From a virus: 35,233 nucleotides of DNA. Position numbers and translations under genes: made by a program. Each line of letters opens with the position of its first letter. The stretch's first letter is position 1. The stretch lies in the IMG/VR virus record IMGVR_UViG_3300036790_000810, positions 1 through 35,233 of that record, one strand, 5' to 3'. Positions 4,647 to 18,110 of the stretch are shown piece after piece. The notes beneath the pieces were generated by a model that was not told the origin of the DNA, ran no database searches, and was given only the letters and a program-made list of their open reading frames with translations.

Positions 4647-7472
4647 TCAGCTCCAAGCCGCAGCAAGCAAAGAGAGATTGATGGCGTTCTGCTTCACGGA
4701 AAAATCCATAGTTGGATAGATGATGTCGGTCGCGCCATCTGCGTAGAAATCTCTCTCAAACCAGTTTCCAGGATGACTGAGGGAGTCAACGGCGCGCACT
4801 TGCAGCTGCACCGTTCCTTTGTGAGATTGGAACTGGAAAATGCGTCCGTTGTCTGCCGTGACAGATGTCCAGTCGTGCGCGCCATTCCATTTGGTCTGGT
4901 AATCAAACGTCACGCCGTCGGGGGCGCCGGACACTGTCACGGTAACCTGGACCTCACCGAGCGCGCCTATGCCTATCCAAGTCTCCCGTATGTCGAGGCC
5001 TGTAATCGTGAGGTTTTCGGATACGGGGTCCTGCGGCGGATCTGGCTCTGGTGGCGGATCACCATTGTCAGCCTGGTGGACACGAGGATCTTCGATAACC
5101 AGGTTGAGGGTGCTCTTGCCGCCGACGGCAGGAGTCATGGACACTACGATTGCGTCCTGAGGCCTCTGTGTTCCCTGGCCCATCGTTACGCGCGGGCGTT
5201 CAAGCTGAAGCCCTGCAGCGTCGTCGCCAGCATCACCCCAAATGCCCCAGTTGCGAGGCTCTATAGTCGCATAGAGACCAGCCGCGGGCGCCGCGCTCGC
5301 CAGGAGTTGGACCCGAGCACGCAACGTAGTCTCGCCGTCATCGATCAAGCTGATCGGCACCACGTCGGAGACTTGACCATCAGGCGCAGCTATAACAATC
5401 ACGCGCGCGCCGTCAGGATCCATGTTCAGCGTCCACGGCTCAGACAACGTGATGATGTCGCCGGCATCGCTTTGTTCGATCGCGAGCGCATCGGCCGACG
5501 CGCCCCAACTCGCCGACCAGTGGGCTACCCAGACCAAGTCGCCCCTGAAGCAAACTCTCCCCTCCAGCTCGGTGTCGAAGTTCGGCAAAATGCGTCTGTA
5601 GCGAGAGCTGGCCACCTTTGTTATGCCCTCGCGCCAAGCTTGCGCATAGTTGTTCACGCCGAGCATGTTGTAAGGAGTCGCGGTGTCAACCGTGGCGGTT
5701 GAGCCAGGCAGGGCGCACAAAACGTTGTGCGGTTTCCAATCGCGGCTATCGACATAGGAGACGAGCAACGCATCGACTTCGCTCTTGCTGAAGAAAATAT
5801 GTGTGCGCCCGAAGCTGGAAGGCACCATATTGCGAGGGCTGAAACCGCAGCGATAAATTGACTTCGGCTCGTCTCGCACAAAAGTTAGCTTGCCGCCCGC
5901 CATAACGGGCTGAGCGCGGCCGACATTAAGCAGCGCGGTCAGTCCGTCCCAGAAGGTCGTGGGCGTGTCAAATATGCCATCAAACGTATCGCCTCGCGTT
6001 GTCCAGATCGCGTCGTATTTCGCCAACCAGTCAAGATCGATATTGGCGTCTGAGAACTGCTTTCTGGCGAAGTAGGCGGTTGCCCACGCGATCGACCGCG
6101 TAGGCGCGGGAGTTAGCCAGGTGCTCATTTCCGCGTCCCAGGCTGGAAGAGTACGAGTCGCGGTGACATTGAATTGCTGCGAGGAAATAGCGTTGAGATT
6201 TTTGGTAGCGGACGCCTGCACAGCGATCAATGTGAGGTCGCCATAGGTGCCGACAGGCGGCAGAAACGCACGGAGAGAGACCCACACCAGTGTGTCTTGC
6301 GTCGAGCTGCTTGTCGCTTTTCGGTTGGTGCGCTCTGCGCGCACCTGCCAGCGGCCGGCGTCTACCTGCGCATAGTAGCTTGAACGCTGCGGCGTCACGG
6401 TGCTCAAGTCTATCGTCACGGTCAAAATGGTGACGGGATCGGCGACAGGCACGCCGTCGTCGTCAATTTTTTGCGCCTGAACCTGAAACGCTACTTCCGC
6501 ATCGTGCATGTTGCCATCGCTGTCCGAGTGCGAGAGCCCGGCCGGCAGCGCGATGTCGATAGCGATCTTGTTCGTAAAAGTCCGGGGGGGATTGCAGACA
6601 AACCACGCCGTCCAGTCGTAGCTGTCCTCGTTTATGCCGAGCAGCTCAATTGAACTGACTTCGGTAGAGGTATCTACGTTGTCGGGAAACAGCGTGACGG
6701 TTCCACCAGGAGGGATGATCTCCCAAGTGATTTCCGGATAAGCACCCGTTGACTGAACCACGCCGGAGTCGTCAGCCTGGGCGATGACATTTGAGCCAAT
6801 GCGAAGCTGAGAGATAGCGTATGAGCCGCGCCCGACCACGAACAGCATGTAGAGCTGCTGGTTGTTGTCCTGATAGTCGAAATAGGGCGCTGCGGCCTCG
6901 TCGCAAACGATGTTGAATTCGCCCAACATCTCAGGGATGGGCTGGCCGAGACGCGCTTGATTGGACTGCGCATTTAACGAGTAGGTCGGTGACGCCGTTG
7001 GCTGTGTCTTCTGCCCCGGCGCCGGCAGCACGGCAGAAATCAGGTAGCGCCCAGCCGTGAGCAACAGCACCGTCGCAAGGCCTTGCGCCGTTTGCAGGCC
7101 GATATCCAGCGTTGTGGAAAGGAATGTCCCTAAAGGGCCTGCGAGGTAGGTTGAGACAATAAGCAGAGCGATCTGGGCGACAATTTGCAGACCGTTCGAG
7201 GCGCCGGCTCCTCCTCCTCCCATGGGCAACGAAACGAGCACGGCATCGCCGTCGATAACGCAAGTGCCCCATTCGCGACGAGGGACAAGAAATGCGGACA
7301 GATCGCCACCGTCGGGAAGCAAATTGGCGTCTCTTAGCAGGACCGTTGAGGATGCTAGGTGCAGATCGGCACGCCTGATCGCGTCGAGGATCGTTTCGCC
7401 CTCAAGAGCGCTGGTGATGCTGGCACCCAAGCCAGGCGCGAGCGGATTGGCGATGTGGATCAATCTGCCCAT
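4647..7472 (-). CDS. Tail tip / host-specificity protein (lambda J-like)
   Basis: A 941-residue protein. I chose the ATG at 7472 because it forms a TGATG overlap with the upstream peptidase gene. The N-terminal region has a hydrophobic Gly/Ala-flanked segment (about residues 90-150), followed by YSLNAQSNQARLGQPIPEMLGEF, a pattern typical of the hub domain in J-like tip proteins (PVLYG-type motif). A long beta-rich central part follows. A Pro-rich linker (PPPEPDPPQDP) precedes a C-terminal fibronectin-III-like domain of about 100 residues. It is the largest protein after the tape measure and sits directly after the NlpC/P60 gene, as in siphophages. It probably caps the tail and contacts the host receptor. 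Confidence 0.82.
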   Translation of the reverse strand: MGRLIHIANPLAPGLGASITSALEGETILDAIRRADLHLASSTVLLRDANLLPDGGDLSAFLVPRREWGTCVIDGDAVLVSLPMGGGGAGASNGLQIVAQIALLIVSTYLAGPLGTFLSTTLDIGLQTAQGLATVLLLTAGRYLISAVLPAPGQKTQPTASPTYSLNAQSNQARLGQPIPEMLGEFNIVCDEAAAPYFDYQDNNQQLYMLFVVGRGSYAISQLRIGSNVIAQADDSGVVQSTGAYPEITWEIIPPGGTVTLFPDNVDTSTEVSSIELLGINEDSYDWTAWFVCNPPRTFTNKIAIDIALPAGLSHSDSDGNMHDAEVAFQVQAQKIDDDGVPVADPVTILTVTIDLSTVTPQRSSYYAQVDAGRWQVRAERTNRKATSSSTQDTLVWVSLRAFLPPVGTYGDLTLIAVQASATKNLNAISSQQFNVTATRTLPAWDAEMSTWLTPAPTRSIAWATAYFARKQFSDANIDLDWLAKYDAIWTTRGDTFDGIFDTPTTFWDGLTALLNVGRAQPVMAGGKLTFVRDEPKSIYRCGFSPRNMVPSSFGRTHIFFSKSEVDALLVSYVDSRDWKPHNVLCALPGSTATVDTATPYNMLGVNNYAQAWREGITKVASSRYRRILPNFDTELEGRVCFRGDLVWVAHWSASWGASADALAIEQSDAGDIITLSEPWTLNMDPDGARVIVIAAPDGQVSDVVPISLIDDGETTLRARVQLLASAAPAAGLYATIEPRNWGIWGDAGDDAAGLQLERPRVTMGQGTQRPQDAIVVSMTPAVGGKSTLNLVIEDPRVHQADNGDPPPEPDPPQDPVSENLTITGLDIRETWIGIGALGEVQVTVTVSGAPDGVTFDYQTKWNGAHDWTSVTADNGRIFQFQSHKGTVQLQVRAVDSLSHPGNWFERDFYADGATDIIYPTMDFSVKQNAINLSLLAAAWS

Positions 7473-15105: not shown

Positions 15106-15528
15106 TTACGCTCCCCTCAACGAGCGGCGGTCGAACGTGCGACGCCGTGTGATGATCTGGGGCGTGCCACCGCTTGCGCCGGCGGCGCGCAATGTGACGT
15201 CGCCAAGCGTCGCCGTTCCGTTGCCCACCATCGTCAGGAATTTGATCGTGTCCTCGTAATCTTTGCGGACACGATCCGTGGCAGGGTCCGCGAGGTGGTA
15301 GTGGGCAACCGCGCATGTCCGGTTGACCAGGTCGCCGGGCACCGGCGTCACTGGTGTGACGATCCGCAACCCGATGAAGGAGTTCACCTCGTCGCTCGCA
15401 GCATCGAGCGCATCGCTGAGCACGCCATAGTCGATCGCGCCCGCCGGCGGATTGGCGCGGTCGGTAATCGCGATGATCTCGTCTTCGCCGAAGCGATCGA
15501 TCATGTCTTGTGCGGTGGCATAGCTCAT
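15106..15528 (-). CDS. Mu gp36-like head-tail connector (DUF1320)
   Basis: A 140-residue protein with the DUF1320 opening [23 protein letters not shown], followed by an all-helical body ([19 protein letters not shown]) and a conserved [31 protein letters not shown] segment. The family resembles head-tail adaptor proteins of the gp6/gp15 type. It overlaps the upstream gapR-like gene as ATGA. The C-terminus ([13 protein letters not shown]) is the usual basic tail of this family. Confidence 0.88.
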
Positions 15529-15770
15529 CGCTTCATCCCAAGCGCACCGAGATACAGATCGAGAATGGCGTCCTGCTCCTGGCGGTCCGCCGTATCGAGC
15601 TTCCGCAGGCGCACTACCTGGCGCATGATCTTGGTGTCGAAGCCTTGGCCTTTAGCCTCGGAGTAGACTTCACGCATATCCGCGGCGAGGGCTTCCTTCT
15701 CTTCTTCGAGGCGCTCGACGCGGTCGATGAAGCTCTTGAGATTGTCCTTAGCGAACCCGCTTTTAGCCAT
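15525..15770 (-). CDS. gapR-like: GapR-family nucleoid-associated protein (UPF0335/DUF2312)
   Basis: An 81-residue protein using the ATG at 15770, preceded by GGAGAG with 5-base spacing. The sequence shows the family core: a first helix [19 protein letters not shown], then [26 protein letters not shown] (the GxGFDxKIxRxxVRLRK signature), then [17 protein letters not shown]. GapR of Caulobacter and relatives forms coiled-coil tetramers around overtwisted DNA and supports replication. Here the gene lies inside a late phage operon, between a 54-residue basic gene whose stop overlaps its start (ATGGCTAA) and gp36. The role could be to modify replication or packaging, or to interfere with host GapR; this is inference. 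Confidence 0.9.
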
Positions 15771-15927
15771 TGGGTCTCTCCAGTTCGGCGCGGCGTAGGG
15801 TGACCGGCTTTGGGGCATAGAGGCCCTCTTTCCGGCGACCACCGACCGAGAATTTGCTGCTGGCCCGGCTCGCCGAGCCGCGCAACACGCCGCGCATTTT
15901 GGTATTCAAACGAGGCAGCTTCTTCAT
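15763..15927 (-). CDS. 54-residue very basic protein, function unknown
   Basis: A short open frame, ATG at 15927 to TAA at 15763, whose stop overlaps the start of the gapR-like gene (ATGGCTAA). The product has many Arg and Lys residues and Ser-rich turns ([16 protein letters not shown]) and no membrane segment. An AGGTGG precedes the ATG, but it lies within a 6-bp hairpin (15931-15945). Translational overlap with the next gene and a high pI suggest a nucleic-acid-binding peptide that works with its neighbours, but no family is recognised. Being short, it could also be non-coding leader; the overlap argues for a gene. Confidence 0.5.
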
Positions 15928-15930
15928 CGT

Positions 15931-15945
15931 CCACCTGTTAGGTGG
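15931..15945 (-). promoter_or_regulatory. Hairpin covering the ribosome binding site of the 54-residue gene
   Basis: CCACCT and AGGTGG form a perfect 6-bp stem with a 3-base loop. The second arm on the coding strand is the AGGTGG that lies 3 bases before the ATG at 15927, so the hairpin could limit translation of the 54-residue gene and, by coupling, of the gapR-like gene. Confidence 0.4.
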
Positions 15946-15973
15946 GAGCGGAAATCCCGAGATCTCCGCTCCC
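15944..15973 (-). other. 9-bp perfect hairpin between tRNA-like RNA and small gene
   Basis: GGGAGCGGA (15944-15952) and TCCGCTCCC (15965-15973) are perfect inverted repeats with a 12-base loop. There is no T-run on either side, so a simple intrinsic terminator is unlikely. It overlaps by two bases with the RBS hairpin, so the two may be alternative folds. It could be an RNase III or processing site, or an attenuator. Confidence 0.45.
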
Positions 15974-16090
15974 GTTCAAACGGCGCCGCCGCTATGCGGC
16001 CTATGCAATCACCCTCTCTCGGGTTGGGTGACCATTCCCATAGGGTGCTGGAGGCCTTGCGAGCCGTGCCAGAGCGCCTCTCTCGCTATA
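15974..16090 (-). other. Structured intergenic segment downstream of tRNA-like RNA
   Basis: 117 bases with no convincing gene. On the coding strand I see CACCCT...AGGGTG (6 bp, 16047-16010), and GCCGC-ATA-GCGGC (5 bp, near 15990-16002). Taken with the two hairpins to the left, the whole segment from the tRNA-like element to the 54-residue gene looks like structured RNA rather than spacer. Confidence 0.35.
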
Positions 16091-16165
16091 TGGTTCGGGG
16101 GGCTGGATTTGAACCAACGACCTGCAGGCCAAGCCTGCCGAGCTACCAAGCTGCTCCACCCCCGG
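16091..16165 (-). ncRNA. Initiator-tRNA-like RNA with aberrant anticodon arm
   Basis: 75 bases that fold as a tRNA. Acceptor stem: CCGGGGG with CCCCCGA, six pairs plus a C1-A72 mismatch. D stem: GAGC/GCTC with an A11-T24 pair and the loop AGCTTGGTA. T stem: GTTGG/CCAGC around TTCAAAT. Discriminator A and an encoded CCA follow. C1-A72, A11-T24 and this D arm and T loop are hallmarks of bacterial initiator tRNA-fMet, and the overall match is close. The anticodon arm is not normal: stem GCAGG/CCTGC encloses only CTTGG, where a standard arm has a 7-base loop, and there is no CAT. The arm is two bases short. It begins 6 bases after the gp35 stop. It is unlikely to decode. Confidence 0.8.
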
Positions 16166-16171
16166 CCTTCG

Positions 16172-16432
16172 CTAGACGCCGTCCTTCTCGATGGGTCTGT
16201 CGATGACCTCGATCGTAAGCTTGGGCTCGCTGAACATGCGATCGAGCTGCACGTCATCGAACTGATCGACCGGATATTCCGCAGGCGCCTTCGAGTGCTG
16301 AATGCCGCCGCGCCAGAAGCCTTCCTGCACGGATTTCACGCGGATGAAACGGCGCGTCCCCTTTTCCGGCGGCGTGGCCGGGATCGCCACGATCGAGGCG
16401 GCGGTCCCGCTTTGCTTTTTCGACTTGCCCAT
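16172..16432 (-). CDS. Mu gp35-like (HI1506-like) head protein
   Basis: An 86-residue protein starting at the ATG at 16432 with a GAGG 6 bases upstream. A TTG at 16444 overlapping the capsid stop is an alternative. The C-terminal part GFWRGGIQHSKAPAEYPVDQF, followed by DDVQLDRMFSEPKLTIEV, matches the conserved core of the gp35/HI1506-like family (GFRRxGixHs...yp.d.Fs..ql..L..dp.L.v). The N-terminus is basic. The family lies between the capsid and gp36 in Mu-like phages; its precise role is not known to me. The stop (TAG) lies 6 bases ahead of the tRNA-like element. Confidence 0.75.
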   Translation of the reverse strand: MGKSKKQSGTAASIVAIPATPPEKGTRRFIRVKSVQEGFWRGGIQHSKAPAEYPVDQFDDVQLDRMFSEPKLTIEVIDRPIEKDGV

Positions 16433-16440
16433 GCCCCGCC

Positions 16441-17340
16441 TCAATCCAGATACGGCGAAACGGCGAGCTCGGCCGCCTGATAGTTCGTATTCGACGCGCC
16501 CGAGGCTAGGAACTGCGCCTGGATGATGGATTGCGCGGCTGCCCGGTTGGACGCGCCGACAACCATACGGAACTCGGCATTGGCGATCTCAACGCCGTAG
16601 TCGAGCTTCATGCCCAGCATGCTCTGCATGGCGGCGTTGAAGTGAGCCGTGTCGAGCGGCTGCTTCGATCCCCAGCAAAGCTGCGGCAGGGTGTAGCCGG
16701 TCGCGTAACGCGCGTCGGCGCCATAGACGAACTTCTTCTGGTAGAAGACGTTGTCGTCGTTGGGCGCTGCCTTCGAGACGAAGGAATAATCCCGCCGCTT
16801 CTGCAGCAGCACCGGCAAGAGGGGTTGGTTCTTGGCGATCAGGAACCACGGGGCACCATCGCCGCCGTCGGTGTTCGCGAACGTCGTCTTGGTACCGTCC
16901 TCGGCGAGGATCGGATGATCCGTGTCGAAGAAGTATTGCCCGTCGAAGCACTCGCCGCCCGCCGCGAAACCGCTCTTCAAGGCGCCGAAAGTAAGCCGGT
17001 CGTAGTGGCGAGTCGTATTGCCGCCCATCATCTGCAGCATCGGCGTATAGATGCCGAGGTTGTCGTCTTCGAAGTCGTTGCGATCGACTTCGAGCGTGAT
17101 TTCCCAATCGCGGTTGGTCACGGTGTAGCCGCTGGCGGCCACACGGCTGGATTGACGATCGCCGAGCCACTCGCGCACCTGCGGGAGCATATTCAGCCAA
17201 CCGTATTCGTTCTTCTTCGTGGTGGAGGGGACCGTAGTCGCGATCAGCGCGTATTGCGATGTCGTCGTCGTCAGTCCCGTCTTGAATGCAGCGTTGAAGC
17301 CGATGCCGGCGTTCTTCAGATTGCCCGAATTGATGATCAA
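16441..17340 (-). CDS. T: Major capsid protein (Mu T / gp34 family), TTG start
   Basis: A 299-residue protein. The in-frame region upstream of 17340 has Arg/His-rich nonsense composition, so I place the start at the TTG at 17340, with GGAG 7 bases upstream and the preceding gene's TAA 11 bases away. The protein opens LIINSGNLKNAGIGFNAAFKTG. Near the middle come ITLEVDRNDFEDDNLGIYTPML and then GECFDGQYFFDTDHP. These blocks, and the C-terminal NPAELAVSPYL-like ending (NYQAAELAVSPYLD), match Mu T-like capsids. The length is close to Mu T (about 305 residues). It is probably processed and assembled with the gene I product as scaffold. Confidence 0.9.
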   Translation of the reverse strand: MIINSGNLKNAGIGFNAAFKTGLTTTTSQYALIATTVPSTTKKNEYGWLNMLPQVREWLGDRQSSRVAASGYTVTNRDWEITLEVDRNDFEDDNLGIYTPMLQMMGGNTTRHYDRLTFGALKSGFAAGGECFDGQYFFDTDHPILAEDGTKTTFANTDGGDGAPWFLIAKNQPLLPVLLQKRRDYSFVSKAAPNDDNVFYQKKFVYGADARYATGYTLPQLCWGSKQPLDTAHFNAAMQSMLGMKLDYGVEIANAEFRMVVGASNRAAAQSIIQAQFLASGASNTNYQAAELAVSPYLD

Positions 17341-17351
17341 AGGATGTCTCC

Positions 17352-18110
17352 TTAATAGGTGATGGTGACGACGAGCTGGGCGAACGCGGTAGCGTCGGTG
17401 TTCGCGCCGCCCACCGTGAAGTTCACGCGATCGCCCACCGCGACGACGTTGAGGGCCGTTGGCGTCGCCTCGTCTTTGTCGCCAACCGCAGAGCCGGCTT
17501 GGGTGATGGTGATAAGGCCACCCGTGATCGCTGCTCCATTGATGCGACCGGTAAGCGTGGCGTCGCCAGCCGCGAGAGCGTGCCTTTCGAGCGAGCACCG
17601 GACATCGGTGATCTCGCCATTCACCGGAGAGGTGAAGGCGAAGACGCGGGCGTCGGCGCCGACCAGGTCGTCGATCCGAAGCGGGAGATAGGCCTTGCGC
17701 TCATCCGGCCCCACCCGAACCCACACGCCGGTCGCGGCGACATCCACGATGCGGCCCGCAGGACTGCGCGTGTTGCCGGCGTCCGTGCGGGCGACCGTTT
17801 CGTCATCCACGACGTAGCAATGCTTGCCGATGTCCGCGATCGTGATCGCATCGGCGCCGGCGCTGTTGCCAAAGAGAAACGTGCCGAAGCGGAAGTCGAT
17901 GTTGAGGTCGCCATCGTTGCCGGCAGTGTTGTCGGCTTCGTATTCCGCCACGCCGAGGGCAATGAGCCCGATGGCGTGTGCGCCCGGAAGCGCGTAACCG
18001 CCTGACGCGCAGACCAGGGCGCCTTCGTAGATATGTTTGCCCTGGGCGACGCCCAAGGAGCCGCGATCGTCGCGGCGGCTGGACACAGCGCGTCCCGTCG
18101 AGAGAGCCAT
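17352..18110 (-). CDS. Head decoration-like protein with extra C-terminal beta domain
   Basis: A 252-residue protein between gene I and the capsid gene. Residues 1-135 resemble DUF2190-type capsid cement proteins: an early Gly-rich ligand-like loop (KHIYEGALVCASGGYALPG), then a stretch ending HCYVVDDETVARTDAGNTRSPAGRIVDVAATGVWVRVGP. Residues about 145-252 form a separate beta-rich domain (AYLPLRIDDLVG to the C-terminal LVVTITY) that may add an external knob. It is soluble. An AGAGG 9 bases ahead of the ATG is the likely ribosome binding site. It probably binds the mature capsid lattice. Confidence 0.65.
   Translation of the reverse strand: MALSTGRAVSSRRDDRGSLGVAQGKHIYEGALVCASGGYALPGAHAIGLIALGVAEYEADNTAGNDGDLNIDFRFGTFLFGNSAGADAITIADIGKHCYVVDDETVARTDAGNTRSPAGRIVDVAATGVWVRVGPDERKAYLPLRIDDLVGADARVFAFTSPVNGEITDVRCSLERHALAAGDATLTGRINGAAITGGLITITQAGSAVGDKDEATPTALNVVAVGDRVNFTVGGANTDATAFAQLVVTITY

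Follow-up and report, generated by a model that had tools for sequence, protein, structure and literature searches.

The tRNA-like element at positions 16091 to 16165 (minus strand) of the IMG/VR record IMGVR_UViG_3300036790_000810, of which we analyzed a stretch of 35,233 nt (hereafter, the window), belongs, as judged from sequence and gene order, to a phage-borne family of initiator-type tRNA-Met(CAU) genes that occupy a constant position within the late operon of Mu-like phages whose hosts are alphaproteobacteria. Both the initiator ancestry of the element and the loss of its anticodon are established by its sequence and by alignment with its relatives. The intact tRNA family is the more interesting discovery; the window copy represents a natural variant of it in which decoding has been lost. 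A broken gene is the most likely explanation for the latter, a new kind of RNA signal only a possible one.

The minus strand from 16165 to 16091 reads CCGGGGG TG GAGC AGCTTGGTA GCTC G GCAGG CTTGG CCTGC AGGTC GTTGG TTCAAAT CCAGC CCCCCGA A CCA. The covariance model of Rfam family RF00005 matched positions 16094 to 16165 (minus strand) with 48.4 bits against a gathering cutoff of 29 (E = 3.6e-11 in a one-record search), a score far beyond chance that identifies the element as tRNA-derived; a family model (R1) gave 88.5 bits. The element is the sole tRNA-like gene in the window. Its minimum-energy fold is a full cloverleaf in which all 20 stem pairs are standard, one of them U-G, and it displays the hallmarks of an initiator tRNA-fMet, namely, C1xA72 instead of a firm 1:72 pair, A11:U24, the T loop UUCAAAU, and an encoded 3′ ACCA. 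The coordinates, strand, sequence, and initiator-type ancestry given in the initial annotation are thus correct. The element has neither a 7-nt anticodon loop with U33 nor CAU: the loop CTCATAA of the host and of the nearest phage relative is replaced by CTTGG (16129 to 16133, minus strand; alignment A3 and host loops). The anticodon arm, GCAGG-CTTGG-CCTGC (16124 to 16138, minus strand), corresponds to GCAGG-CTCATAA/TTCATAC-CCTGC in the intact relatives and folds as 6 bp closed by a UUG triloop, as had been proposed from the letters; in isolation, this fold has an energy of −8.9 kcal/mol, versus −3.1 kcal/mol with the 7-nt loop assumed by ARAGORN. In addition, C2:G71 and G3:C70 take the place of the initiator pairs G2:C71 and C3:G70.

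The record is a Mu-like transposable phage in which Pfam recognizes the Mu transposase, Mu portal, Mu protease, gpT, gp36, and tail completion genes, and its late genes all lie on the minus strand. The element follows the genes for the major head protein gpT (16441 to 17340; PF10124, 339 bits) and for a 90-aa protein at the gp35 position (16172 to 16444; weak FluMu_N match below the curated cutoff), the TAG stop codon of which ends 6 nt before tRNA position 1, in agreement with the earlier placement after gp35. It is succeeded, on the same strand, by a 163-nt leader containing a 13-bp hairpin (15944 to 15973; inverted repeat I2, supported by folding), by an open reading frame for a basic 54-aa protein without a detected relative (15763 to 15927), which overlaps the start of a GapR-like (DUF2312) gene (15525 to 15770; PF10073, 116 bits), and by the gene for the head-tail junction protein gp36 (15106 to 15528; PF07030). 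No promoter-like site was found in 15500 to 17400, and a search for direct repeats, as insertion footprints, yielded only short repeats at chance level. Most phage relatives of the GapR gene are from phages of alphaproteobacteria and close relatives occur in alphaproteobacterial genomes, from which we infer that the host of the window phage is probably an alphaproteobacterium.

Seven other Mu-like phages or prophages (loci L224, L226/L157, L227 = L340, L232, L336, L339, and L342) carry an intact tRNA-Met(CAU) on the same strand in the same interval as the window element, between gp36 and the gp35-position gene, the equivalence of the latter being partly positional, as homology of its products cannot be demonstrated for all phages. 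The CAU anticodon is present in all seven and absent from the window element. Among 200 Pseudomonadota genomes, the best DNA match came from a prophage (L157 in genome G188) and not from a host gene; this prophage has the order capsid, 76-aa gene, 6 nt, tRNA-Met(CAU), gp36, and tail completion, whereas L221/L224 (IMGVR_UViG_3300045582_000110), found by pattern and sharing the G27:C43 arm, has the order capsid, 57-aa gene, 5 nt, tRNA-Met(CAU), GapR, and gp36. Searches anchored on gp36 and the capsid added L232 (genome G503), L227/L340, L336, L339, and L342. The PF07030 scores of gp36 are 94 bits in the window, 122 bits in L224, and 33 bits in L226. Between the gp35-position stop codon and the first tRNA nucleotide lie 6 nt in the window and L226, about 5 nt in L224, about 6 nt in L342, about 10 nt in L336, and about 94 nt in L232, whereas L339 and L340 have the upstream gene's stop codon within the tRNA itself (positions 8 to 10). 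Between the tRNA and gp36 lies a cargo slot of variable content (15525 to 16165 in the window; L224; L336, 2765 to 2998; L342, 2596 to 2826), which holds GapR directly 3′ of the tRNA in the window phage and L224 and an unrelated small gene (MPKPTVGRIVHFY.../MTPTVGRIVHYF...) in L336 and L342, with short leaders elsewhere. A further tRNA gene of the L224 phage, at a different genomic site, encodes tRNA-Arg(UCU) (L225, 13899 to 13974). No description of a recurring initiator-type tRNA at one late-operon locus of Mu-like phages was found in the literature searched.

The gene is not universal at this junction. In the close relatives L338 and L341, the gene order is the same but no tRNA is present, nor was one found beside gpT relatives sharing about 40% identity (IMG/VR loci, genome loci, RC1, RS1, and ThpS-P1). 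A covariance model built from nine phage tRNAs detected no degraded copies at other gp36/gpT loci (about 150 loci in all); decaying arms at the same locus, named in the initial annotation as what would speak against a selected structure, were thus looked for, and the related phages either have the tRNA intact or lack it. In IMG/VR, no other 3- to 6-nt loop was found at this arm except in two tRNA fragments adjoining an integrase gene. These (L139, 7615 to 7652; L140, 1366 to 1403) were rejected as further short-loop copies, being 5′ parts of an initiator tRNA directly behind the end of the integrase gene, with the anticodon loop replaced to give a longer palindrome arm (TTGGGCC AC GGCCCAA); they probably represent an att site. 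Phage initiator-type tRNA-Met genes with a GCAGG/CCTGC arm and a 1:72 mismatch also occur outside the gp36 setting (L220, 3914 to 3990; L222, 3830 to 3906), that of L222 adjoining terminase genes.

The window element differs from the host initiator tRNAs seen. The arm TCAGG CTCATAA CCTGA characterizes nearly all host copies found, in 15 of the 16 alphaproteobacterial genomes checked, in line with the rhizobial-type arm given in the initial annotation, and the acceptor start NGCGGG is kept in all host-like initiators collected. The exact G27:C43 initiator arm pattern was absent from all 385 alphaproteobacterial genomes sampled. Unchanged capture of a host tRNA was rejected, since no host initiator was seen with C2:G71/G3:C70 or G27:C43, and so was arrival of the tRNA together with a chromosomal gapR, as no initiator tRNA lies beside 30 alphaproteobacterial gapR genes. 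In one genome, a second initiator-type copy with the arm CAAGG/CCTTG (L350, G407:C1:2943714-2943751) is located 1.6 kb from the normal copy.

The intact syntenic copies have one of two anticodon loops, CUCAUAA (L224 and L336) or UUCAUAC (L226, 12629 to 12705; L227/L340, with L227 at 4706 to 4782; L232, 1886 to 1963; L339, 2822 to 2898; and L342, 2500 to 2574). Position 38 is C in the UUCAUAC copies versus A in host initiators, and this base borders the site, between A38 and C39, at which enteric VapC cleaves initiator tRNA (PMC4105405); a VapC from the alphaproteobacterium Bosea lowers tRNAfMet (PMC8522696). Changed anticodon loops of phage tRNAs have been proposed as a means of evading host anticodon nucleases, and phages are reported to avoid encoding tRNA-fMet in general (PMC10264068). 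We hypothesize that C38 in most intact members makes for a cut-resistant initiator tRNA, with which the loop sequences are consistent. Of 367 alphaproteobacterial genomes, 2 (G188 and G503) contained an initiator-type arm with UUCAUAC, in each case within the prophage, a figure that reflects rarity in hosts and not prevalence in phages, given that the search was centered on G188, that G503 was already known from the gp36 search, and that the pattern requires A11:U24 and is therefore blind to members such as L339, L340, and L342. The latter three do not have A11:U24 and may be drifting to the elongator type.

In an alignment of nine phage tRNAs, of which only that of the window lacks CAU, all 180 of 180 cells were paired and 11 of the 20 pairs had changed on both sides, compared with 33% to 46% paired in slid controls, which argues that the cloverleaf is maintained across the family. 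The initial annotation had taken the outer G-C pair of the window arm for a compensatory change and hence a sign of selection; this argument fails, because G27:C43 is present in relatives with an intact CAU, both at the same locus (L224 and L226) and elsewhere (L220 and L222), so that the pair predates the anticodon loss and is uninformative on selection after it. Among the nine tRNAs, the swap to C2:G71 is confined to the window and G3:C70 is shared only with the distant L222; both pairs are absent from the nearest relatives, and either may have arisen before or after the anticodon loss. In simulations, all pairs remained intact after 4 random substitutions in 10% of cases, after 5 in 5.5%, and after 8 in 1%, such that up to about 4 to 5 neutral substitutions following the loss leave all pairs intact at P ≥ 0.05. 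A recent loss without selection is therefore fully compatible with the intact pairing of the window element; the short loop is known from one phage population only.

We consider it reasonably probable that a short, complex change in the loop broke what had been an initiator-type phage tRNA, and that the element is perhaps still transcribed and processed. The intact ancestor would have been an initiator-type tRNA-Met(CAU) located just after the gp35-position gene and before the variable cargo and gp36, presumably transcribed together with the head genes and released by RNase P cleavage just past the gp35 stop codon; the position and shape of the element make such processing plausible. The likely ancestral role of the intact genes would be to replenish initiator tRNA upon cleavage of the host's own, in the manner proposed for other phage tRNAs. 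The change of the loop from CTCATAA to CTTGG would have given the perfect 6+3+6 hairpin GCAGGC-TTG-GCCTGC, which a single template-switch (quasi-palindrome) event could have produced. Without CAU, the RNA can neither be a methionine tRNA nor read AUG, making a recent loss of decoding the most likely present state, with a fold that would not yet have decayed and might still be processed. The syntenic CAU relatives, the complete pairing among the nine aligned tRNAs, the lack of degraded copies at the loci searched, the uniqueness of the window loop, and the GapR gene 3′ of the tRNA in common with L224 favor this reading; against it, all stems are intact and both bases of pairs 2:71 and 3:70 differ from those of the nearest relatives, as also expected under continued selection on the fold. 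Recognition by methionyl-tRNA synthetase (MetRS) rests mainly on CAU, and the window RNA should thus not be methionylated. Formylation is assisted by C1xA72, G2:C71, C3:G70, and A11:U24 (PMC7949028). With CAU, G2:C71, and C3:G70 all lost, competition of the window RNA for the formyltransferase or IF2, as suggested in the initial annotation, is unlikely on anatomical grounds.

The alternatives grant the element a present function or deny that the short loop is real. That it is a working, non-decoding RNA of initiator shape, in which a late-operon tRNA has been turned into an anticodon-free processing signal or decoy while the relatives keep the decoding form, strikes us as doubtful. Processing punctuation, in which the tRNA fold but not decoding is needed and an RNase P cut 6 nt behind the gp35 stop separates the head-gene mRNA from the cargo/gp36 mRNA, would tolerate the anticodon loss and can be entertained tentatively: in most members, the tRNA lies 5 to 10 nt past the gp35 stop or overlaps it, even as tRNA sequence and downstream cargo vary; the window element has every part that RNase P reads (acceptor stem, T arm, elbow, and CCA) in intact form; and no promoter-like site was found in the region. 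However, all seven relatives keep CAU, which punctuation alone does not need, other kinds of tRNA should appear if shape alone mattered, and L338 and L341 do without any tRNA.

A decoy or inhibitor, that is, an initiator-shaped RNA that occupies an initiator-tRNA-specific nuclease or another factor and is uncuttable in the loop it is missing, appears quite improbable. The activities of the enteric (PMC4105405) and Bosea (PMC8522696) VapC speak for it, as does the retention of C1xA72 and A11:U24 in an RNA without A38, but bait for a loop-reading enzyme should keep the loop, the MetRS and formyltransferase determinants are gone, and no gene of such a nuclease system was identified in the window phage. 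An assembly or sequencing error hiding a normal loop could be suspected, as only the loop of a hairpin is affected, but the change is not a homopolymer slip, and a separately listed IMG/VR contig of the same phage (IMGVR_UViG_3300036820_000102) is 100% identical to the window over its whole length of 11,140 bases, so that CTTGG is not a one-off error of one assembly; we regard an error as very unlikely. Hardly credible is a genuine decoding tRNA-Gln(UUG) with the inner stem pair open. The ARAGORN call to this effect was rejected as a misreading, because it needs C at position 33 in place of the near-invariant U33 and an opening of the inner stem that costs about 5.8 kcal/mol in the arm, whereas all other features are of the initiator type and the relatives have CAU.

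Compared with known systems, the window element resembles bacterial initiator tRNA-fMet in C1xA72, A11:U24, the D arm, the T loop, and A73-CCA, and differs from it in the absence of CAU and in the replacement of the formylation pairs. Like att-site fragments of tRNA genes, it is a tRNA sequence that resides in a mobile element and has no functional anticodon; unlike these, it is a full-length cloverleaf with no adjoining integrase, in a transposing phage that needs no att site. Similar to the nuclease-evading phage tRNAs (PMC10264068), the family is phage-borne and most intact members differ from the host loop (UUCAUAC versus CUCAUAA), including at position 38. Unlike those tRNAs, it is of the initiator type at a fixed late-operon locus, although phages are said to avoid tRNA-fMet, and the window copy is without any anticodon.

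The analysis brings to light an initiator-type tRNA that is specific to phages and recurs at a single late-operon locus of Mu-like alphaproteobacterial phages. The presence of C38 at the VapC cut site in most intact copies makes the putative resupply of a cut-resistant initiator tRNA directly testable. The anticodon-less window copy is a natural decoding knockout with the fold kept, and its comparison with the intact copies would separate a role in decoding from one in processing.
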